A stretch of DNA of 64,000 nucleotides, taken from assembly GCA_963921825.1 (NCBI GenBank), contig OY997589.1:49238638-49302637 (forward strand), in the 5' to 3' direction. The translations under genes and the position numbers were made by a program. The notes under the pieces were generated by a model. That model did no database searches. It was not told the origin of the DNA and saw nothing but the letters and a program-made list of their open reading frames with translations. The DNA is from Erodium maritimum (taxonomy: Eukaryota > Streptophyta > Magnoliopsida > Geraniales > Geraniaceae). Shown here piece after piece: positions 47,850 through 62,940 of this stretch (position 1 is its first letter; every line of letters starts with the position of its first letter).

Positions 47850-48277
47850 CATTCATGATTTGGATGTGAATGAGTCGAATTACTTATCCCTCGGTCTATT
47901 AGTGAACTATCTCTCCAGGGATTGTGAAAGATGTTCCACTATCAATATTCTTTTTATTGCTTCGACTCATATTCCCAAAAAAGTGGATCCCGCTCTAATA
48001 GCTCCGAATAAATGAAATACATGCATGAGTAACTGAGAACAAGGGAGATGGATATAAAAAGAATAAAGTAATGAAAAAGGAAGTCATTGCTAGTAGTAAC
48101 GACTTGTCACGATCCATTGGTTTATATAGAATCCATGTTCTAGGTGTATCAAAAAACATTCTTTTCGCTAGATAGGATAACTGAACCACATGGTTGCCAT
48201 CACAGCTCCTCTGTCTAATCTTTGTGAATAGGTCCTTAATTGCCAAAACCATAACTCTGGGATTCTCCACTGTCCCC
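47850..48277 (-). pseudogene. nad2: Mitochondrial DNA insert (NUMT) with nad2 last exon
   Basis: On the minus strand, 48190-48020 reads KRMFFDTPRTWILYKPMD and then FFLYPSPLFSVTH. This is the C-terminal end of mitochondrial NADH dehydrogenase subunit 2, a membrane subunit of complex I. Just before it (48250-48190) is sequence like domains V and VI of a group II intron, GAGCTGTGATGG...GTGGTTCAG, as expected for the last nad2 intron. The insert is therefore genomic mitochondrial DNA, not a copied transcript. After SVTH the text leaves nad2 before its normal end. The remaining 47850-48020 is another segment, probably also organellar, that I could not name. The neighbouring LTR lacks about 40 bp compared with the sister LTR at 45313-45350, which is typical of repair at a broken end. 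It cannot function in the nucleus. Confidence 0.82.
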
Positions 48278-48554
48278 GGGTTAAGTAGGTGTATCAAATA
48301 TTAGAAAAGCATGACACGGGAACGTAGCGAATATTAGAAAAGCATGTGACACTTGGTAGTGTCGTAGGAGCAGAGAACTTATCGATGTTAGAATTACTGG
48401 AGGCATATGACCATGCCCGGAGGTTGATTGTGAACTTATCGATATTAGGAGTACTGGAGGCATATGGCCATGCCCGGAGGTTGATTGTGAAACTGTTGAT
48501 ATTAGGACTGTTGGAGGCATTGGTTATGCCAAAGGTTGTTTGTGTATTTTGTGT

Positions 48555-48905
48555 CTTGGGTGTCCATGAGAGCCCGTGTTTTACTGTTGTGTCTTGGGTG
48601 GCCATGAGAGCCTGTGGTTTACTGTTGGTGTCTTGGGTGGCCATGAGTGCCCGTGGGGTTGTTGAACCCATGTCTTTACTGTTGGTGTGTTTTGGGTGGC
48701 CGTGAGTGCCCGTGGGGTTGTTGAACCCGTGTCTTTACTGTTGGTGGTTTTGAGTGGCCGTGAGTGCTCGTGGGGTTGTTGAGCCCGTGAGTTACTGTTG
48801 GTGTATCTTGGGAGGCCGTGAGTGCCTGTGGGGTTGTTGAGTCCGTGTTTTACGGTTGGTGTCTTGGGTGGCCATGAGTGCCTGTGGAGTGCTGAACTTG
48901 TGTTG
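48555..48905 (+). repeat. Minisatellite in G3 second LTR fragment
   Basis: Same units as 45610-46030 but about one copy fewer (about seven). Confidence 0.88.
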
Positions 48906-49457
48906 TTGTTGTTTGTTGAACTTTGTTTGTGATTGTGATTGTGGTTACATGAGGTTGTGGGCCCGCTTCATGAAACAGGGGTCCTCGATCACACGCGTCT
49001 GCATGTTCAGACGCGGTAGGGGGCCCGCCCGTCAGTAAAAGGGTCCTGGCCGCGCGTGTGTGGTTCGGGGTTGTGAGTGTGATAGGTCGACAGCCTGATC
49101 CGACTTTGTGTCGAGGAAATGCGACAGGTCGACCGCCTGACCTGATGAGATCGGTAAAGGACGTGAAGGAGGTTACTGAGCAGCTGGTTTGCGATCCTTT
49201 GTGATCTTGTTTGGTGTGCGATCCTTTGGGATCTTGTTTAGTGTTGCGTAGCTTTCTGTCGTGTCCTTGGAGGAGGTCGTCGATAGTTGTGTCAGGTTTA
49301 CATTACGAGTCCGAGTGTTGAGTCCGTTGAGGAAGGTAACGGTTTGTGTGTCAGTTGAGTACTTGAGTTTGGGGATTGTATTCCCGGTGTTGGGTTTGGT
49401 TTTGGTGTTACCGGCATTGTCTACTAAGTATGTCGTAGTCAGTCTGTTATTTGTGGT

Positions 49458-49475
49458 GGTGAGCGAACGCTCACC
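49458..49475 (+). promoter_or_regulatory. Conserved LTR hairpin block (G3 second LTR)
   Basis: GGTGAGCGAACGCTCACC, perfect stem, then TTTTCCTACAGA. Confidence 0.78.
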
Positions 49476-50159
49476 CCTAGCTGCTTTTCCTACAGATACT
49501 GATCACATGACGGACTAGGTGAGCTCTCGAAGCTTGTGGAGCTAGGAGCGGAGTCCGGGTTTTATCTTTTGAGTCTAGTGACGGATACCTTGTACTTTGT
49601 CCATTTGTTGGGACATTTTTGAGTTGTAAATATTATTTTGATTAACTAAATGGAGATTTTAAAGTGTTTATTCAAAACTGGTTTCATTTGTTTATTATTT
49701 TAAACGTTCGCGTCCCGAGTTTGGTTTTACTGAAATTGGGGTGTGACAATTAAACTCAGATTGGGCTTCGCCCGAGAGCTTGGATTTCGCCCGAGAAGAC
49801 AGAGTTGGGCCGGACTTCAGCAGCTCGGAGAAGTATTAGAGGAAGACCGCAAGGTAGGGAAAGTACTAAACTCCTCGTGCAATTTAATACTTAGTATGTC
49901 TATTAGGTTAATAAAATCGGAAATGTCCTAGATTGCATATAGGATGCGAATAACTAGAATAATCGTCTTTCAATTACTAATAACCAGACGTGTCTAGTAT
50001 GCATGCGTAGGATGTGAATAACTAGTTTAACTTGCTTTCAATACTTGGGAAATTGCTTTACTGGTAGAAAGGCTGTGATGAGCCATAGGATTGGTTGTGG
50101 TTGCCTCATATGCTTGTTTGCTTGCTTAGTTTTAAGATAAATTAAGAGTCTAATGAAAC

Positions 50160-50260
50160 TAGCTAAATCGTATGTTTGAATGATTGAATGAATGCTTGAA
50201 TAATTGGATGATTGAATGAATGCTTGAATGATTGGATGATTGAATGGATGATCGAGTATG
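50160..50260 (+). repeat. Short reiteration GAATGATTGAATGAATGCTT
   Basis: About five loose copies of a ~20-bp unit such as 'gaatgattgaatgaatgctt', in otherwise unassigned DNA. Confidence 0.7.
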
Positions 50261-50439
50261 ACTGATTGTGCCAAATGGTACGATCAGGTGATCGATGGAC
50301 CGATGGATCGTGATTGGTAAGTATAACGGTAAGTGTAAGGGTATATGGATATCCTTGGTGTGTTGTGATGAAATTGTGATTTGCTAAGCTTGGTTGTATG
50401 ATGTGTTGGCATGTTATTCTCTTGAGTGCGTTTTGCGAT

Positions 50440-50790
50440 TGGTTGGTTGATCCCGCGGGATATTGATTGGTAGACCCTACGGGGCATTGTTTGGTTGATC
50501 ATGCGGGATATTAATTTGTAGACCTTGCGGGGCATTGGTTGGTTAATCCTGCGGGATATTGATTGGAGGACCATGCGGGGGCATTGTTTGGTTGATCCTG
50601 CGGGATATTGATTGGTAGACTCTGCGGGGCATTGTTTGGTTGATCCTGCGGGATATTGATTGGTAGACCCTGCGGGGCATTGTTTGGTTGATCCTGCGGG
50701 ATATTGATTGGTAGACTCTGCGGGGCATTGGTTGGTTATTGGACCCTGCGGGGCATTGGTTATTGGACTCTGCGGGGAAGTTGGATGGTT
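50440..50790 (+). repeat. ~48-bp tandem array
   Basis: About six full units with the core TTGATCCTGCGGGATATTGA and then 'ttggtagaccctgcggggcat', followed by shortened units. The paired cores TGCGGGATATTG and TGCGGGGCATTG look like a duplicated half-unit. Confidence 0.92.
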
Positions 50791-50887
50791 TACCCTGATC
50801 TGTCTTTTCTAAGGATATGGAGATGTGTAACTTATGTGAAGCGTCTAATGACGAATAAGTTAGCCCCAAATCAGAGAAGTTCCTCTT

Positions 50888-51060
50888 TGTAGCACCCGTC
50901 CCCGTGTTACCGCTGCTCGTCCTCGTCTGCCGCGAGCCATGTCTCAGTATCCTCTGCACGGATACACGCAAACATTTAGTTTGCGAACTTATAATACGAC
51001 GAAACGCTCAAAATACTAGCGTTCATAAGGTCTACGTCTATCTCTGGCGCACTCGTCACT
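50888..51060 (-). other. Possible LTR end of another gypsy family
   Basis: On the plus strand it begins TGTAGCACCCGTCCC. Read on the minus strand this would be an LTR ending ...CGGGTGCTACA. It passes into the G4 leader without a visible border. Too short to assign. Confidence 0.35.
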
Positions 51061-51882
51061 AAACGTCACACCGCTTACGTCATTAATACTTTAATTATAA
51101 TAATATGTAAAGAGACCTCAAATAGACTGCACAAACGTGCACCAAGTCACGCAACCACAACGCGACAACTGCGTAAACAAGACGGTGAAAAAGGATAGGG
51201 GTCACGGACCCGTGACAGACCCCATCACGGTTGGGGTCATGGTGCCGTGACAAAGGCCCTAAAATAGCCAAAACCCTCTGATCCGTCACGGATCCGTGAC
51301 AGGATCCGTGACTCTCGCGCAAGGCAGTTTTCCAAAAACGCCTTAAACTCGACCGTTACTCCTTTTTAACCTCAAAGAGAAACTTTGGACGACGCACACA
51401 CTCGACCAACAATTCAACAACAACAAGGACACCCGCCCACCGGGCCAACCAAAGTCGAACCACGCCCACCGGGCCAACTAAAACCACACACGCCCACAGG
51501 GCCAATCAAAATCAAACACGCCCACCGGGCCAATCAATTTTAAAACTTTCTCCTTTTTCATTTTAAAACCTCATACTTGACATCACGTAGTTACAACCCG
51601 GTCCAGGCGTCCCCGAACTACGTTGTACAGACTTGATATCAGCACCGTCATGTTCGACTACAAGAGCTCTTGCGTCGAGTCGCGACAGCTTAAAAACGTT
51701 TCACGCGGCAACAAACAATCAGCACACCAGCAATCAAACACTGCACATACGCACAATCACAAACCGGACTCAAACCACTACGGGTCTACACACGGTTCCG
51801 ACTTGCGTACCCAACGCACGACGAGACTTAAATGACTCGACTCTCCCCACCTAATTGACGTACAGTCCGAGGTGTGAAACCT

Positions 51883-51897
51883 CGAGCTCTGATACCA
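51883..51897 (-). promoter_or_regulatory. G4 primer binding site
   Basis: GAGCTCTGATACCA on the plus strand, the reverse complement of the usual TGGTATCAGAGCTC, next to the LTR. Confidence 0.85.
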
Positions 51898-52174
51898 AGC
51901 TGTCACGCCCCAATTTCAGTAAAACCGAACTCGGGACGCGAACGTTTAAAATAATAAAATAATTGAAACCTGTTTTGAATAAACACTTTAAAATCACCAT
52001 TTAGTTAATCAAAATAATATTTACAGCTCAAAATACGTCCCAACAAGTGGACAAAAAACGAGGTATCCGTCACTAGACTCAAAAGTAAAACCCGGACTCC
52101 GCTCCTAGCTCCACATGCTTCGAGAGCTCACCTAGTCTGTCCCGTGATCGGTAACCGTAGGAAAAGCAGCTAGG

Positions 52175-52192
52175 GGTGAGCGTTCGATCACC
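52175..52192 (-). promoter_or_regulatory. Conserved LTR hairpin block (G4)
   Basis: On the minus strand GGTGATCGAACGCTCACC, one stem mismatch, followed by CTTTTCCTACGG. Confidence 0.75.
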
Positions 52193-52784
52193 AAGACAGA
52201 TAATAGACTGACTACAGCATAATTAGCAGACAATGCCGGTAACACCAATAACAACCTCACACCGGGGAACACTATCCCCAACCCAAGTACTCCGACTGAC
52301 ACACACCCACTGTTACCTTCCTCGACCGACTCAACACTCTGACACGTAAAGTAGACCCAACACAACGATCACGACCTCTTCCAAGGACTCAAAAAACCAC
52401 CACACAACACCCAAGATCACAAAGGATCGCACACCAAACAAGATCACAAAGGATCGCATACCAGCTGCTCAGTAACCTCCCTCAATCACGCGCTTTGCCG
52501 AACTCTCAGGCCAGGCGGTCGACCAGTATCAGTAACCTCTCTCTCTCACGCGCTTCCCCGACATAAAGTCTGGCCAGGCGGTCGACCTGTCACACTCACA
52601 ACCCCAAACCACACACGCGCGGCCAGGACCCCTTTACTGACGGGCGGGCCCCCTACCCCGTCTGAACATGCAGACGCGTGTGCTTGAGGACCCCCGTTTC
52701 ATGAAGCGGGCCCCCAACCTCAGGTAACCACAATCACAATCACAGACAAAGTTCAACAAACAGCAACAACACAAGTTCAGCACT

Positions 52785-53400
52785 CCACAGGCACTCATGG
52801 CCACCCACGACAACAACCGTAAAACACGGACTCAACAACCCCACAGGCACTCACGGCCTCCCAAGATACACCAACAGTAACTCACGGGCTCAACAACCCC
52901 ACGGGCACTCAAGGCTACTCAAAACCACCAACAGTAACTCACGGGCTCAACAACCCCACGGGCACTCACGGCCTCTCAAAACCACCAACAGTAACTCACG
53001 GGCTCAACAACCACACGGGCACTCACGACCTCCCAAGACACACCAACAGTAGAGACACGGGTTCAACAACCCCACGGGCACTCACGGCCTCCCAAGACAC
53101 ACCAACAGTAGAGGCACGGGTTCAACAACCCCACGGGCATTCACGGCCTCCCAAGACACACCGACAATAAAGACACGGGTTCAACAACCCCACGGGCACT
53201 CATGGTCAGCCAAGACACACCAACAGTAAAGACACGGGTTCAACAACCGCACGGGCACTCATGGCCACCCAAGACACCAACAGTAAAACACGGGCTCTCA
53301 TGGCCACCCAAGACACAACAGTAAAACACGGGCTCTCATGGCAACCCAAGACACAGCAGTAAATCACGGGCTCTCATGGCCACCCAAGACACAAAATACA
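52785..53400 (-). repeat. Minisatellite in G4 LTR
   Basis: About twelve units of 40-60 bp with the core CGGGCACTCATGGCCACCCA (plus-strand reading). It is the longest array of this type in the window. Confidence 0.9.
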
Positions 53401-55235
53401 CAATCAACCTCCGGCATAACCAATGCCTCCAACAGTCCTAATATCAACAGTTTCACAATCAACCTCCGGGCATGGTCATATGCCTCCAGTACTCCTAATA
53501 TCGATAAGTTCACAATCAACCTCCGGGCATGGTCATATGCCTCTAGTAATTCTAACATCGATAAGTTCTCTGCTCCTACGACACGACTAAGTGTCACATG
53601 CTTTTCTAATATTCGCTACGTTCCCGTATCATGCCTTTCTAATATTCGATAAACCTACTTAACCCACGACACCCCGGTGTCACATGCAATTCTACTGTTA
53701 ACTTTCCCTAGTCAGGGTCGAGATCCGGCTACTTTTCCCTACCTCGTATAAGTTCTCCAAAAGTGCCCAAATAAGCCCCGGCGTGATCTCAGTCACTCGC
53801 CTAGCTTTCCTTTGCCTCGGTCCGCAGCACGATCTAAAAGAACACAAATTTAAGGCACTTTTAAACTCGCAGGAATAAACTGAAAGTCGATAAACTTAAC
53901 GCCTAAACGTAACCCCGACAATGTCGATCACACCCAAACTTCCCAAATACTCGACATTGTCGATAAAGGACCCGTAAAGGCCCGATTCGCCTGACATGGC
54001 GAATCTGCCCGGGTTTTGGAAACGCCCTTCCGGGGCTCCGAAAATTTCCGTTTTCGTTCCTACGGTCTTAGAATAATTCAAAGGTTCCTAGGCACTCGAC
54101 GGAACCGAATTCCGACTTCTGAGTCATTTAATTAACGTTTAAAGTTTCTAAACCCGTCAATTACAACATTCACATTTTAATTCCAAATTTCGATTCGGCT
54201 GTGGATAAATGGTCCGGGGAACGTTCTAAACCACTCAAACACAAAACCCGATCACCCACCACGTGGGCCCCACCCGGCCAAACTTGGCCGTGGGTCCTAG
54301 GGTTCAAGTGGGCCCGGCCCACCATGGTGGTGGCCGGCCCTAGCTCCGGCCAACCACCCCTCATGGTGGCCGGCCACCCCGTATGGTGGCCGGAGCTCCT
54401 CCCGAGCTCCCGGTCGCCGGAAAACGTTCTCCTTCACCTCCAAACGTCTCCAAAACGTATCCAACACTCCCCCAACATCAAAACAACCTTAAACTAATAG
54501 TTTCAAACCAAAACCTAAATTTAGAAAATGACAAATCGAAGATCGGTTTGGTGTATACCGTAGAGGAAGACGAGGAGAGTTTGATTCTTCGAACTTTGAG
54601 ACGGGCCAAGGGTTAGATGACGTGAATAGTGCCTCCAAACCCTAACTTTCTCTCCCTTCTCTCTTCTTCTCCTTCTCCTTCTCTCTCTAAACCACTCTCT
54701 TCCTTTTTCTATTTTTTTCTTTTCTTTTTAGGTGTGGCCGAACCCCATAACGGGTGTCTTCTTTATTTTCCCCCCAAAACTAACGCCACCACTTGTTTGA
54801 CAAGTGGCAAGGTGGGTCCCACACCTTTTGAGAAAATATCTACTAGTTATTTTCCAATCAGATTCGCGAAAATTGGACGTTTCGGGCCCTGAACGGGCAC
54901 TTTTTCCAAGAAATTACGAAACTTGTCTGGCTACAAGGAAATGGATCAACTAAGACCGCTGCGACGACTGCTAAGCTTTTTGGATCCAAAACGGTCCTCG
55001 AATGGACCAAAACATCGCTCAGTTGACTTTTCCAACGAAAAGTCAACATTTCCCAAATTGATCAGAAAGTTGCCCTGAGTCCCCCGGAACTCACTTTGGT
55101 CGATATCAGGGTCATCTTAAGTCCGGTATGACCCTCAGGGTCAATTTTGGGTTTAATTTAGTGTCTGCCTTAAATTTTTTAAATTTTCCTATTTTTCGCA
55201 GGTTTGACTGGCGTTGACTGGGAATGGTTCTTACA

Positions 55236-56782
55236 GAAAGGCTTTTGAGGAAGTGTTCACACAAAGTAGGCATCGACTATGTATGTGACACATAATGCAG
55301 AAGCTTCCTTCTAAAGTAAGTTGCGTTTTAAATTTATACATTTGTTAGTGATTTATGGTTCATAAAAGTTAACGTTAGGAGATAAATAATTTGTTCAGTT
55401 GATTGTGATAAATCTGTTATTATTATTGCAGGTGCCTCACAATGTATACCATGAGACAAATTTCAAGAACAAGTTTAAAGCATTGGTGTGGAGTAACTAC
55501 ACCGAAACAGACGAGTTTGAGCTGACTTGGAAGGCTTTGATGGATGAATTCCCACTACATGATCACACTTGGTTGTCTGCTATGTTTGATATACGGGATA
55601 GATGGATCCCTGCATATTTCAGGGGGCTAAAAATGGGACTATTCCTTAGAACAACATCAAGATCAGAGAGTGAGAACAATGCATTTGGTCAATTCACTAA
55701 CAGGTACCTTTATTTTGTGAGAATTCATACACCTTTATGATTGATAAATGTTTCAATGAGTACTGATAAATTATGCATTCTTGATTGATAAAAATATGTG
55801 TGGATGTCATGTTATTTTCTGATGATATAATTTATCATGTTGTGATAAATGTTTCACGAAGAACTGATAAATTATGCAGTCTTGATTGATAAAAATATTG
55901 TTGTTCAGGTGCCTTACCCTGGTTGAATTCATGTGGCGCTTCGATACAGTCGTTGAAGGTTAGAGACAGAAACAATTACAGCTGGACTTCCAATCAAGCA
56001 CCTTAGCTCCCTACTTCATGGTATTATCTGAAATTGAGAAGGACGTTTGGAGCATTTACAGCCGCTCAATCTTTGACATCATAAAGAAAAGTGTTGTGGG
56101 AACAACATTCAAGTGTGGGATCAAAACGTGTGTTGAAGAGGATGGAAAGAAGATATATAACATCGCAAACAAACATGGGAACAAGACGTTTGTTGTTGTG
56201 CAAAGCTTACCTGGGAACCATTGCACATGCTCTTACATGAGATTTGAAGGATTTGGCATCCCTTGTATGCATATTTTCTTGGCTTTGCAAGTATCTATGG
56301 TTGATCAAATACCGGAGAGCTTGATCATGCAAAGATGGACAAAGGATGTACGCAAGAATGCTGAAAACTCTACAGATTCTGAAGAATTACAACCATCTAC
56401 CTATGGTGAGTGTAAGAAAATTATTTTAGATATATGCTCGATGCTTCAATCTTGTGTCCTCCATCCAGCAGTGAATGCCGCAAAGTTGAAGGAATTTGAA
56501 GAACAAGTAAAGGACTTCAAGAACAAATTGAATGATGATGAAGCTAATGATTTTGCATCAAGCACAACACAAGAACTTTAGACTTTGACATGTCTTTCTA
56601 AACCTTCACAAGTTATTGTCAAGCTACCACATATATCAAGGACAAAAGGTTGTGGAAAGAGAATTCAATCAGGGATGGAAACGTCTATTGAAGAAGCTAA
56701 GAAAAGGAAGGGGACTTGCAAAGGATGTGGTCAACCAGGTCATGACATCAGAAACTGCTCCCAAAAAAAAAGATGGTTGTAG
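55236..56782 (+). pseudogene. FAR1-like MULE transposase, C-terminal half, decayed
   Basis: Three exons with GT..AG introns are visible: 55236-55315, 55432-55703 and 55919-56782. Exon 1 (KAFEEVFTQSRHRLCM) and exon 2 (HDHTWLSAMFDIRDRWIPAY, SESENNAFGQFTNR) are the end of the MULE transposase core as found in FAR1/FHY3 proteins. Exon 3 holds LVEFMWRFDTVVEG, a SWIM zinc finger at about 56220-56270 (CTCSYMRFEGFGIPCMH) and a CCHC zinc knuckle at about 56715-56760 (CKGCGQPGHDIRNC). In a working element it would bind and cut transposon ends in the nucleus. The 5' half is lost at the G4 border. Three stops interrupt otherwise continuous frames: TGA for an expected Trp near 55293, TAG near 55962 and TAG at 56579-56581. 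FAR1 host regulators descend from such transposases, but the neighbours and decay favour a transposon copy. Confidence 0.85.
55740..55906 (+). repeat. Tandem ~60-bp duplication with TGATAAA in FAR1-gene intron
   Basis: Two copies (about 55740-55796 and 55849-55906) each hold three TGATAAA motifs in the same spacing, with the phrase ACTGATAAATTATGCA. Confidence 0.85.
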
Positions 56783-57160
56783 TGATAAAACATTGAACTA
56801 GTGTTGATAAAAGTAGCACTTAAATTTGATAAATAATTTCCCTCTATTACTGACTCTATGAATTACAAGGTAATTCAGTACTGATAAAACATTGGCTTAG
56901 GCTTGATAAAGTCTTCAAGTAAAGTTGATAAAAAAAAATTTTAACATTCCTAAGTCTGTGATTTACAAGGTGCTTCAACATTGAATATGTACACAAATTT
57001 AGGGGTGATAAAAGTTGTACCAAATGTTGATAAAAACTTAGTACATAACTGATAAAAGACCTTCAAAAATACTTAACTATTGCCAGTAAAAATAACCATC
57101 CACAACAGTGATAAACCATGAACACAGAATTGATAAAACTCTTCTATATATGTGATAAAC
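56779..57160 (+). repeat. TGATAAA array between the two MULE-2 genes
   Basis: Twelve exact TGATAAA motifs by hand count, spaced about 20-60 bp apart, always on this strand, mostly preceded by GT, AC or CT. It lies in the shared 3' region of the convergent genes. Confidence 0.9.
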
Positions 57161-57382
57161 CTGGTACATATAAGAGATAGATAAGATTTGTCAAACATTT
57201 GATAGAAAACTTAATAAACCCTGTCATTCCACGTGCTTAAAAACATCTATGCACATTTCATATCATCTGCTTACCAAAAAATACTAGTCATTAGAAGTTT
57301 GCAACTGATTACATCCTTTTTATCAAAAAAAGTCACTGCACAAAAGACCTAATGCTTTATATGGTTGCCTTGTCCAACAGTC

Positions 57383-60300
57383 CTATATAGTTCTTTCTGA
57401 AGAAGTAGGAGATAATTCATCCTCTTCACTTGGTTGATTCCTCTGACAATAGCTCCTCAGCTTTACCTCGTTCATGATCTTTGCGGTGTTGCTTGGATAC
57501 GTGCACAATTGCATGACATATCGATGCCTCAGGTTCGATAGTTGATCAGCCTATATACACAACAAAGAAATCTCCCAAATTATTTAAACTACACACATAA
57601 AAACACAAGACTTAAAAAGACATGCACAAGAAGAAAAAAAAGGTTATCTTACATTGTTCTTTGACATAGCAAAGCCCCAAGTACTCTCGGATTCACCTAT
57701 GTACCTCTCCATGTGAAACATGCAGTAGATACCGCAGTCAACCTTATTATCAGCGTTGTTCCAATCTAGCTTCAAAGCCCTTGCAGGTCCATTTCTGAGT
57801 TTGACGGATAGTGTAGCATCACGCCTTTCAAGAAACGTCGAAAACCTATTCCTCTGTCAATGATTAACGGAAAATACATACATTAGAAACACAAAAATGT
57901 GCATAAATTAATAACTAAAAATAGAAAATAAAAATTTACCAAATTGGTGATTATGTTCACGTACTTTACTCTAAAGTTAGTCCCCTGCAAGTTATCTAGG
58001 ACAGCCACTGTGTGTTTCCTCATGTTGACACATGCCAAGTAATGATGAGAGTTTGCATGGATTGGGAAAAACACATGTCATAGAAGAACAAAGAAGACAA
58101 ACATGGTTACACAAAGCACAAACCTAATACTATAAAAATGATACATAAGCCCGAGAATGTGTGGGGGATCCTTACCAAATCCACAGTAGTGAGATCAATA
58201 CATGTGTACAACTCCAACTCGGTTTCAAGATCTTCACGCCAATTTTCTTTCTTCATATCAATCAAGGACGTCTAATGATAAAAATGATGTAAAATGATAA
58301 ACACATTCCCACCTTAGTATTATTAAAAAAAGACAAAATTCACATGAACGAAAAACACTCACGCTTGCAACTGTTGTGAAGAAAAACCTTGAAGGTTCAT
58401 CTGGTGTTCTCTTCTCCTCCATCAAATTCATGAAAGCAACCCATGCATTAATAACACCCACCAGTAACTTCTGTCCCAACTTTCATGGACTGTAAATCAT
58501 TTTTCATCACACCTACACAGCCATCCACGATTTCGAACATCATTTCCCTTCAAAAAACACACAACACATATGCTTGATAAAACTGAATCACATTGTTGAT
58601 AAAAATACCAGATAATGTTGATAAAAATGTAAAGACAGGGTTAACATAATGCAAAAACATGTTGCTAATGCTCTACACATCAGTGGTGATAAACCAATAT
58701 GACACTACTGATAAACCTAGCAGATAATGTTGATAAAAATACAAAGACATGGTTAACAGAATGCAAAACAATGTTTGCTAATACTCTACACATTAGTGGT
58801 GATAAACCTAGTAGATAATGTTGATAAAAATATAAAGACATGGTTAACGGAATGCAAAACAATGTTTGCTAATACTCTGCACATCAGTGGTGATAAACCT
58901 ATCTGACATTATTGATAAACCTAGCAGATAAAGTTGATAAAAATGTAAAGACAGGTTTAGTACAGTACCACTAGTCTTCCCGATCATCGTTCAGCAGCCA
59001 GTTCATCCAAAGTTTCTCCTCTTTTGTCAATGGAGGATTCAAATCTGTTTTCCTACTTGCTGGCCTTGCCTCTATAAGTTTCTCTGTGGTTAGCTTTTTT
59101 CTACTGCTTCTCGATTTTTTCTTTTCTTCTTTCTGTTTTCCCTTCTCTATCCTGACAACATCTTCACATGCTTCCCTCCCTACATCAACAACATCTTCAT
59201 ATGCTTCCCTCCCTACTTCAACAACATCTCCACACGCTTGCCTTCCTATGTCAGCAACATCTTCAAGACCGAGACTAAATGTTGGCATCCCACGACCTTG
59301 TGGCTCGCCTACATTGATCTCCTCAGCATCCACCGCAAACGTGATATTATCATTACCGTTTCCTTGTTCGACAACATCATCGCCTTCTCCTTGTTCAACA
59401 GCATTATCATCTTTCCCTTGATCACCAGCATCATCAACTTTTCCTCCTTCAACAGCAACATCACCTTCTGCCTCAACGTCGCAATCTCTTCCTAACTCCA
59501 CTACTGGTTCAACCCCTTCCTCGTGCTCCTCAACAACCTTATTATCCCTTCCAAGCCTAACACAATAAGCTTCTGCCTTCTCTCTCTCTGTTGCACAATC
59601 TTGACCACTGTTATCCTTGCCGCTACCCTGGCTATTCACTTTAGTTGCAGCATTAAATTCTGCATCAACTGCTTTTATCACATCAGGATGCCTCCACCAA
59701 CGATCTTGTGATGACTCTTCGATGTTGTGCTTTGATGAGGCCCCCACCATCTCATTCACAGCATCGTGCAGCCTCCTAACGGTGATATTGTCAGAAAACT
59801 TCGAAATGGCTGTTTTGATGCTTTCCTAAAAAAGGGACATAGCTATCAGCGAGATGTACCACTTGTTCTGCCAACTTTACAATGTATTCCTACGGAAATT
59901 ACAAAAATACAAAAAATGTTACAGAGAAACACAAAAACTTATGACTTTAACACAAAAAAAAACTTTGAATATACCTCTTGTCCCAGATCAACAATGACAT
60001 CCTCAACTTCCTCAGGTATGTATGGGTCTTTCTCTATATAACCCTCCCCAAATGACCCATACTGCTTTTCCATATACTCCTGATCTTTTAGGTCATCAGA
60101 TCTCCAACCTATGAGAGAAGGCTGGGCCTTATCCACAAATCGCTTCTCGAGCACAACACGATCCACATAGTATAACTGCATAACACCCAAAAAAACAAAT
60201 TAGAACTACACAATTTGACTGCTGACAGTGAAAAAATATATTTGTTTATCAACCCTACATGCATAAATTATCAACATTATTCAGTACTTTTATCAATGCA

Positions 60301-61426
60301 ACAAGGATGTTAAAAATTGAACTAACCATGATAAATGTCAAAGGCCCAGCATAGAACTTATCTCATGTGGCTGACTTATCCCTTTTTTTTGCTTTCAATC
60401 AGGCCATCAATGACATGCCCACACCAGTCATATTCTGGGATCGCATTTACATCGTCCATTGCGTACAAGACAAAATGATTCACATACCTCCCGCTCGTCC
60501 ATTCAACCATCAGAGTTGAGAATAACACAACAAAATTCCACTTGAACATTTCTTCATCTCCTCTTTGTTTCTTCATCACTTCAATTAGAGAAGAGATGGT
60601 CACTCCAAAAACTGATTGAGCATTAAACTGCCGAAGCCAACGTACAACAAGTCGACAAAAATCAGATCTCTCTTGATTGATCGCTCGTCCGCCAAAGGGG
60701 ATCCCTAATGTTTCCTTAACATTTTCACTATTGATGTGTAAATGTCGGTCTTGCCCTAGCTTGATGCAAAGACTCCCAGTATGGATATTACTCACAAGCC
60801 AAGGGCTTGTTGTAATTCCTTCACCTCTAGCAGCAACATACTCCCAAAACCCATGTCATGTACTGCCTTCTTCTGCACATCAGTCATTTCCTCTATGAAA
60901 TTGACCAAGGACTTAGGTGATGTCCTGACCTTCAACCTCCAAAGACCATCATCTCTTATACGCACCTGATCCTTCTTGGTCTTCTTTTCAATTGGGTTTG
61001 CAAGAGCATTGTCCTCCAACTGTGGCCTCTTGTTCATAGGACCTACGAATGGTTCCATAGATGAGCTTTCACCTACATCATTTGCTGGATTCGGAGGAGG
61101 AGCGATGACTGATCCCTCTCCTATAACATCTGTTGGATTAGGAGGAGCGGACATCAACAACCTTTGTCCTGCATCCTTTGTCGGATTAGGAGCAGCAGTC
61201 GCAGATGAGCTCTTTTCCCCTACAACATTCGCATGATTCGGAGGGACTTTAATCTTGATAACAGGACGTTTTTTAGCTTTGACTGCACAACACATTCAAA
61301 AACACAAAAATCACCAATCATAGCAAAAGCATATAATAAAAACAAAGTTTAAATTATTCAAAACCTTTTACCTAGGATCAAGTCCTTAAGGAGAAGTAAA
61401 TCGTCATTTGATCTAGTCTTCACCAT
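57383..61426 (-). pseudogene. Ulp1-like cysteine protease (C48) gene with DUF1985 region, decayed
   Basis: The likely start is ATG at 61426 (MVKTRSNDDLLLLKDLIL). About nine exons fit: 61426-61372, 61282-60327, 60181-59975, about 59825-58975, 58560-58360, 58270-58172, 58070-57940, 57853-57654 and 57550-57383. Exon 2 has the entry of this family (FIEEMTDVQKKAVHDMGFGS) and a DUF1985-like part (INSENVKETLGIPFGG). Exon 3 has LYYVDRVVLEKRFV. Exon 4 is acidic, with three 11-residue repeats (GREAYEDVVDV type) and a basic tail KEEKKKSRSSRKK. The protease motifs are intact: H in HHYLACVN, D in VAVLDN, and the Cys in NKVDCGIYCMFHME. Ulp1 proteases cleave SUMO from proteins; the substrate here is unknown. 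Frame changes near 60795, 60385 (an A-run) and 58470, and a TGA near 60362, make this copy a pseudogene. Confidence 0.8.
58570..58955 (+). repeat. TGATAAA array in an intron of the Ulp1 gene
   Basis: Eleven exact TGATAAA motifs by hand count. Here they sit in larger ~130-bp repeats (58620-58750, 58740-58860 and 58860-58950) that include 'acaaagacatggttaacagaatgc'. Confidence 0.9.
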
Positions 61427-61484
61427 TTCTCTGAAACACAGACACTTATACATAAGAGTGTGAGCTAATCAAAGCTGAGTGTGT

Positions 61485-61785
61485 CTGATAAACCTAGATC
61501 ACAGTGTTGATAAATGTACAAGACAGTTGTGATAAACATAGATAATAAGACTGATAAACCTAGATCACAAAGTTGATAAAAGTACAAGACAGTTGTGATA
61601 AACACGGATAATAAGACTGATAAACCTACATCATAGAGTTGATAAAAAACAATGCAATGTTGATAAAAATGAATACAAATGTTGATAACTCACAGAGTTG
61701 ATACTTATTCAATACTAAAGATATAAGTGATAAATCTATCTCACAGAGTTGATAAATGTGAATGTGAATGTTGATAAATCACATA
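61485..61785 (+). repeat. TGATAAA array upstream of the Ulp1 gene start
   Basis: Twelve exact TGATAAA motifs by hand count, in pairs such as ACTGATAAACCTA and GTTGATAAAAGTA. It lies just 5' of the presumed start codon of the minus-strand gene. Confidence 0.9.
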
Positions 61786-62759
61786 TACACCACCTCTCAC
61801 ACGTTCAACCCTCCCAATAAAACTTCAAATGCATAGCAAACTTCACTTCAGTCATGAAAACATTCTTTTACTCAAACAGAAACCACATTGTCATGTTTAC
61901 CAATCGTGTACAGCCAGAAAACACATTATCTGAGATCAAACTTCGAAATCAGTACATGCACAGAAACATATCATCAAAATTTCAAAATCAACACGCATGC
62001 AATTGAAAATGAGACAATCAAACACAGAATACAAGCGATTTACAAGTTTTAGAGAAACAAAATGCACTATCAAACACAAAACCTAGATCAAACATCAATA
62101 CACATGCAGTTAAGTTGGAAAAAAAACAGAGCACAAAGCTTTCAAAACCCTGAATATATGTTCCTCCCTCCAGAAATCGCATACAAAAACGCTTTGAAGT
62201 AACAAAATCAACTGTCGAACTCGAAAACTAGGTCAAAATCGATTGTATTTCCAAAACAAATCCCTAAATCAGTGAAGCTTATCACGACAGAAAATGATCA
62301 CCACAATGAGAAACGGAGACCAAACCTCTATATAATGCGTAGAACTCAACCGGAACGATTGATTTTGCTTGAGATTGACGAAAAACACGAACAAAACTGC
62401 AGAAAAATGACGAGCCGAGCGAGAAGAAGGAACTGAGAGCGAGTGCGTGAGAGAAAACCGTGAGTTGTGTCTGAGAGATCGGAAGAGTCACGTAGTTGAG
62501 AAGAACAAATTGATATTATGACTTTACCCTCACAAAACTAAGGAATATTACAAAAATGCCACCGAATTGTGCTGTTTTTTTTCTGACAGAAGTCAACAAG
62601 TCAACATCCTACTAATAATCTCAGCCATCCATTTGTGAAATGAATGGCTTGGATTGGTTCACACAGTTTTTAGGTTAAGCTATGGTTTCTATTTGATTTT
62701 TTCTCTTCAAATTTATATTATATATTAAATAAAATGAATTATTATTTAATTAATTAAAT
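61786..62759 (-). other. MULE-2 right arm, probable promoter of the Ulp1 gene
   Basis: AT-rich DNA between the TGATAAA array and the terminal repeat. Short open frames on the minus strand (62282-62491) have no domain. By position it would hold the promoter and 5' leader; I saw no clear TATA box worth marking. Confidence 0.4.
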
Positions 62760-62940
62760 GAATGAATAAGGGCATTTTAGGTATTTTTGGAAAAATAAAC
62801 AGTAAACTGGCGGATTTGACTGACGGAAGGGATTTTTACTTACAACTCGTAACTTTAGGGTATGCATCACTATCTTTTGAACTTTAGGATAACTATCGAT
62901 TAAACGTGCCTACTTAAGGATAGTCATTTGAAGTTTTCCC
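62760..62940 (-). repeat. Candidate right terminal inverted repeat of MULE-2
   Basis: Read inward on the minus strand it starts GGGAAAACTTCAAATGAC. It has the same style as the MULE-1 ends: repeated short pieces with TACCCTAAAGTT and TATCCTAAAGTT, then a CCGTCAGTCAAAT motif, compare CCGTTAGTCTTC in MULE-1. The left partner is missing, so the inner border is a guess. Confidence 0.55.

Follow-up and report, generated by a model that had tools for sequence, protein, structure and literature searches.

We analysed a 64,000-nucleotide stretch of the Erodium maritimum genome (the window; contig OY997589.1, positions 49,238,638–49,302,637), which holds the remnant of a Mutator-like element (MULE) whose non-coding parts carry arrays of the word TGATAAA. 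The remnant encodes a FAR1-type transposase on the plus strand and a Ulp1-type gene on the minus strand, the two facing each other; exons and introns were inferred from open frames rather than from transcripts. Full relatives in the same 763-Mb genome are approximately 9.8 kb long and have 22-bp terminal repeats (17 of 22 positions identical), with target-site repeats of 10–11 bp in all three elements in which both ends could be compared. Homology to relatives places the 3′ end of the window copy at about 62705, and not at 62940 as proposed in an earlier note made by a model from the letters of the window. On the 5′ side the copy is truncated, abutting another repeat at 55235, and the missing transposase half had no match in the window when the relative L005 and the upstream ends of four relatives served as queries. 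L005, which shares 93% identity with the window across 3.27 kb, encodes FAR1 (PF03101, E = 1e-7), MULE (E = 1.8e-22) and SWIM (E = 1.8e-5) domains, the MuDR model not being reported at E 0.1; of these, the FAR1 and MULE parts are missing from the window copy. Of the two in-frame stops in the transposase, the one near 55960 recurs at the corresponding position of L005; the frame of L005 is open at the other, 56579. The Ulp1-type gene is frameshifted near 60800: most relatives match no earlier than from residue 18 of the frame and several have a longer one.

Exact counting between 55236 and 62940 gave 45 plus-strand and 5 minus-strand copies of TGATAAA (5 and 4, respectively, in the remainder of the window), which bears out the strand bias reported earlier. 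The hand count of about 41 copies in four places was likewise accurate (6, 12, 11 and 12 in the four main arrays, in the order of Table 1), and further plus-strand copies lie at 55406, 58276, 58295 and 60329. The enrichment exceeds that of composition-matched controls—in simulations under Markov models of order 1, 2 and 3 (300 each), the plus-strand mean was 1.6, 3.3 and 10.7 and the maximum 8, 10 and 21—and the minus-strand count is within the simulated range (maximum 7). Exceptions in the other direction had been placed near 60250–60300, where two copies (60245 and 60289) do form the outer members of a reversed 22-bp triplet with an imperfect middle member (TGATAAT); three more minus-strand copies are found elsewhere (55831, 57319 and 59674). 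The accompanying statement that exons lack the motif holds apart from the minus-strand copy at 59674, within the Ulp1 open frame, and the copy at 56783, which in L005 overlaps the transposase frame at its end. The copies are also regularly spaced, which the earlier note does not mention: 28 of the 44 distances between successive plus-strand copies are exactly 22 bp (about two helical turns), often in runs of three. All 28 spacers of these units are different, with a mean pairwise identity of 0.40 compared with 0.29 for control stretches of the window, and higher-order repeats of 66, 91 and 112 bp demonstrate tandem duplication.

Table 1 Features of the MULE remnant and its motif arrays (window coordinates).
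Feature	Position	Strand	Basis
MULE transposon remnant, 5′ part missing	55236..62705	+	homology to copies L001–L038 and end pieces L061–L068
FAR1-type transposase gene, 3′ part only; in-frame stops near 55960 and at 56579	55236..56782	+	open frames, domains, L005
Array in transposase intron: two triplets at 22 bp, 6 motifs	55742..55893 (motif starts 55742–55887)	+	motif counts, spacing
Array between genes: four triplets at 22 bp, 12 motifs	56783..57159 (motif starts 56783–57153)	+	motif counts, spacing
Ulp1-type gene, several exons	57644..61426	-	exon limits by eye from open frames
Peptidase_C48 match in Ulp1-type gene, E 9.3e-4, just below Pfam cut-off	57883–58077	-	domain search
Two motifs 19 bp apart in Ulp1-gene intron	58276..58301	+	motif counts, spacing
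11-motif array in Ulp1-gene intron, spacing mostly 22 bp	58575..58941 (motif starts 58575–58935)	+	motif counts, spacing
Reversed triplet at 22 bp, middle member TGATAAT	60245..60295	-	motif spacing
N-terminal domain of Ulp1-type gene	60376–60855	-	homology
First exon of Ulp1-type gene	61373–61426	-	splice-like signals only
Array upstream of Ulp1 gene: 12 motifs, 66-bp higher-order repeat in three units	61486..61778 (motif starts 61486–61772)	+	counts, repeats
3′ terminal repeat, 22 bp; 17/22 identical to 5′ end of full relatives	62684..62705		end comparison

Retention of the arrays by relatives was a check set in advance, and arrays with the 22-bp step were present in every one of the 38 pieces of family loci. 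Two pieces, L001 and L009, correspond to the window itself, and some of L002–L008 share elements with some of L010–L038, so that the 38 pieces represent fewer than 38 elements. The region upstream of the Ulp1-type gene contains 4–15 motifs in 29 of 30 loci and none in L015. In an alignment of eight copies (loci cut out of 40 scored matches, the window's own included), cells deviating from the majority numbered 25 of 1,204 (2.1%) in the motif, 176 of 3,582 (4.9%) in spacers, 186 of 8,834 in coding sequence and 605 of 12,021 elsewhere. On the Ulp1 side of 27 copies (27 of the 30 loci, without L012, L015 and L016, in which the array region is short, absent or rearranged), the corresponding figures were 73 of 3,413 (2.1%), 568 of 8,859 (6.4%), 2,394 of 44,207 and 1,900 of 32,591. 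Motif columns are those in which the majority sequence reads the word, a scoring that slightly favours the motif; in A, T and G columns of the eight copies, motif and spacer differ with a Fisher p of 5e-4 (cells not independent). Functionless, neutral expansion of a tandem repeat would fit the higher-order repeats, yet it is a very improbable account of the arrays: the word persists as the spacers drift, no two of the 28 spacers in the window agree, and the same 22-bp step has been reached in independent lineages (see below).

Across the genome, two TGATAAA words separated by 15 letters (TGATAAA-N15-TGATAAA) occur 36,053 times on both strands, compared with 180 for the reversed pattern, and pairs with 14 letters between them occur 3,907 times, compared with 122; it is from this comparison of 22 with 21 bp, and from the reversed patterns, that a preference for 22 bp across the genome is deduced. 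Three of the first places in the 36,053-pair list, few as they are, hold elements (L069, L070 and L071) with 82, 33 and 20 copies facing one way (5, 0 and 0 facing the opposite way) and longest reading frames of 76, 79 and 74 amino acids. Arrays make up most of these elements, which lack long reading frames. L070 is flanked by a 9-bp target-site repeat, has an end resembling that of the family (84–85% over 87–88 bp) and is free of the motif within approximately 350 bp of both ends. An action of the arrays in transcripts, as splicing or RNA-stability signals, is extremely improbable; several arrays are intronic or near gene ends, but the word is in the sense orientation for one gene and antisense for the other, the triplet in the Ulp1-type gene is reversed and the arrays are retained where long frames are absent. 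That the arrays reflect a property of the element at the DNA level rather than of either transcript, as first argued from the window, is supported because frameless relatives keep them, the motif is conserved against drifting spacers and the step is fixed at about two turns.

The words might instead be bound by the FAR1-type transposase and be required in cis for transposition, in which case gene-free elements would keep them in order to move. FAR1 domains form a DNA-binding family, derivatives of Ac/Ds and Spm retain subterminal repeats, and the gene-free elements here keep both terminal repeats and arrays. We nevertheless regard this as unlikely, because the arrays are distant from the ends—a further array 5′ of the transposase in full relatives starts 696–713 bp from the 5′ end (four of four examined, of which one end, L061, was placed roughly), the nearest array in the window is 927 bp from the 3′ end, and the distance in L070 is, as noted, about 350 bp on both sides. 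Single opposite-strand copies of TGATAAA are found nearer the 5′ end (381–526 bp). The arrays are moreover intronic or intergenic, mostly in one direction and not mirrored at the two ends, with the exception of the inverted arms of one element (L076, described below).

Divergent Ulp1-type genes are accompanied by other words. The N-terminal domain of the gene yielded 150 scored matches, taken in tiers, of 621 candidates. In five nearer relatives (L039–L043; domain 52–66% identical to that of the window), TGATAAA is kept, at 134 to 0 by direction (simulated maximum, 21). Among 17 loci with domains 27–35% identical, in which the gene was recognized by this domain alone, 12 have other words: TTACAGT preceded by A or G in three (25 versus 1 reversed; simulated maximum, 3), TTGCGRAT in two (16 and 14 copies, 0 reversed) and TTTACAT in seven (55 versus 8). 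The direction relative to the Ulp1-type gene is mostly one per word. These words were chosen in the loci in which they were first counted, whereas the 22-bp pair counts of TTGCGRAT (4,794 versus 0 reversed) and TTACAGT (350 versus 13 reversed) are genome-wide. The TTGCGRAT lineage by itself gave 150 scored matches at an identity of at least 79%, many with open frames; the 7-mer of largest strand excess in that group is ATGTTTT (25; maximum of 15 in 40 simulations), which lies within the 44-bp unit of the chosen word. Of four held-out loci, two of the TTTACAT group had TTTACAT as their commonest 7-mer, L072 had the same words as L060, to which it is closely related, and the signal in L074 was weak (3 versus 0). 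L060 and L072 (domain 93% alike) have strand-biased TTACAGA and TTACATA in common, perhaps a further word related to TTACAGT. The set includes near-duplicates (L040 and L041; L057 and L059, 94% alike in the domain), and a string resembling the Ulp1 active site was found in L052 only among the distant lineages, in which the loci may stop short. Recognition of the arrays by a host factor such as a GATA- or MYB-type protein, or through nucleosome arrangement, which the element uses or suffers, has in its favour that GATAAA resembles plant GATA-type sites and that a 22-bp periodicity can favour bending. The occurrence of quite different words at the same step in related elements of one genome is more than a single host factor could explain, and makes this account distinctly unlikely.

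Words also differ between two gene-free families with common ends and a common spacer core. The arms of L076, an element taken from the TTGCGRAT pair list, are inverted, approximately 460 bp long and 88% alike; one holds five words and the other seven, and the longest reading frame of the element is 86 amino acids. A subterminal module of approximately 135 bp is common to L076 and L069–L071 (73–79% in the stronger matches), with module and array in the same order; between L070 and L076, the module is about 76% alike and the words are different (TGATAAA and TTGCGRAT, respectively). The spacer core AGTGTATA occupies the same place in the 22-bp unit in 6 of 7 units of L076, 20 of 36 of L069, 10 of 14 of L070 and none of 5 of L071. 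The module is also carried by L047, of the TTACAGT lineage. From these alignments, we read L069–L071 and L076 as probable products of a word change on a common backbone; convergence of a short AT-rich spacer could instead account for the shared core. More tentatively, and with odds that we place slightly below even, the genome may contain several private anti-silencing languages with a constant grammar, in which words are spaced by 22 bp along a single helical face, and an exchangeable word, and in which gene-free elements follow their helper by changing the word. If this is true, the paired evolution of protein and word could be readable from a single genome and the specificity code solvable.

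A candidate reader of the words is suggested by Arabidopsis VANDAL elements, in which the element-encoded proteins VANC21 and VANC6 bind repeated non-coding motifs and remove silencing (PMC5735166; PMC10398659; statements from the literature here and below draw on excerpts of the papers cited). The arrays are the proven protein target in VANDAL21 and VANDAL6 (PMC5735166), and Ulp1-carrying VANC genes of Arabidopsis reportedly act on the motifs of their own element kind (2026 review, PMC13317346). VANC structures, as yet unpublished, are cited in meeting reports as pointing to co-evolution of the proteins with their target DNA (PMC8756742, PMC12859917). Given an anatomy that closely matches that of the VANC21 and VANC6 targets, and the existence of Ulp1-carrying VANC genes, we infer, with a probability of roughly 0.7, that the arrays are cis target sites of a family-encoded DNA-binding protein that acts like VANC, most likely the product of the Ulp1-type gene. 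The binder would be the Ulp1-type protein of the family or a paralogue, and would remove silencing. Such a protein would dock on TGATAAA words along one helical face, at intervals of 22 bp or about two turns, cover the non-coding parts of the element and strip host silencing from it and from gene-free relatives with the same word, leading to movement. Tandem duplication would make the arrays grow and shrink, with selection keeping the words while spacers drift, and divergent lineages of protein and word would give rise to private systems.

Several observations weigh against a VANC-like Ulp1-type protein. In the 8- and 27-copy sets, most column classes show quicker change at C and G than at A and T, which suggests that these copies carried methylation during much of their existence; if so, the system would work chiefly when a source element is active. 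The predicted structure of the Ulp1-type N-terminal domain (pLDDT 72) matched no solved structure (best Protein Data Bank match, E 4.2). DUF1985, the VANC domain, was detected in 2 of 15 members of the domain alignment at E 0.02 and 0.052, below the Pfam cut-off, and gave no Pfam match in the window's own domain (the alignment is without L049, which has a stop, the window's domain, L041, L042, L043, L047, L050, L055 and L056). Five of the 17 distant loci have no clear word (top 7-mer strand excess of 14; simulated maximum, 13), and the TTTACAT group has no clear 22-bp step. Finally, for the distant lineages the comparison covered the Ulp1-type genes, and the words could track the transposase.

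Further repeats occur in and around the element. The middle of the Ulp1-type gene (59155–59469) is tandemly repetitive, with 33- and 27-bp units, both multiples of three; VANC proteins reportedly have variable regions with tandem peptide motifs (PMC5735166). A repeat of which one end is fixed occurs at least four times in the window (26695, 30508, 43848 and, in reverse, 55235) and, with the same end, inside or beside five MULE loci (L042:2864, L046:4531, L048:3324, L059:753 and L062:177). Its end at 55235 starts with TG, which makes it a possible long terminal repeat. Several minisatellites (17-, 24- and 59-bp units) lie at 48000–53300.

Transposon-encoded anti-silencing with changing target words has been described from Arabidopsis (PMC5735166); here, a VANC/VANDAL-like anatomy is seen in a different type of MULE, at a scale of tens of thousands of word pairs. 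The step of about two turns hints at how the protein may read DNA. Gene-free relatives that differ in word, together with the paired proteins and words, form a natural set for working out sequence specificity, with possible tools for lifting silencing at chosen loci. No description of TGATAAA arrays was found in the titles and abstract openings of the literature searched. The strict 22-bp step under different words and the gene-free families with exchanged words were not met in the excerpts; overlap with work in EMBO J 2022 (10.15252/embj.2021110070) is possible.

We considered whether the element is itself a VANDAL or Kaonashi element, which is ruled out by its FAR1-type transposase and short terminal repeats; DUF1985 is only marginal. 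Kaonashi elements (KI-MULE, KIU) are, similar to the element here, MULEs with a Ulp1-domain gene facing the transposase gene (PMC13317346, PMC2528002), but they have a mudrA gene and lack terminal inverted repeats, as do VANDAL elements, in contrast to the FAR1-type gene and 22-bp terminal repeats of the element here. The FAR1, MULE and SWIM domains of L005 resemble those of FAR1/Jittery-type MULEs, for which the excerpts of PMC2528002 do not mention motif arrays. The VANDAL transposase is likewise mudrA-type rather than FAR1-type, the words here are unlike those of VANC21 and VANC6, and a strict 22-bp step was not met in the excerpts of PMC5735166. No arrays of the VANC21 or VANC6 word were found in 22 related loci or the window element: by strand, the window element has 1 and 0 copies of the VANC21 word and 1 and 1 of the VANC6 word, and the five nearer relatives have 0 and 0, and 1 and 3, respectively. 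In the seven loci of the TTTACAT group, the VANC21 word occurs five times forward and never reversed (simulated mean, 0.8; 1 of 200 simulations reached 5), a slight excess of copies scattered one or two each over four loci (L045, L049, L055 and L056). VANDAL motifs keep the same orientation in introns, intergenic regions and terminal non-coding regions, undergo tandem expansion and loss, and differ in word between related families, and a VANC word is also found in the non-VANDAL element AT9TSD1 (PMC5735166). Similarly, the non-coding arrays described here have one orientation (45 versus 5 in the window and 134 versus 0 in five relatives, with one triplet reversed), expand and contract between copies (0–15 motifs upstream of the Ulp1-type gene in 30 loci) and differ in word between related families, less clearly so for TTTACAT. 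By this analogy, which would extend to binding and demethylation, the element appears to work like a VANC/VANDAL system.

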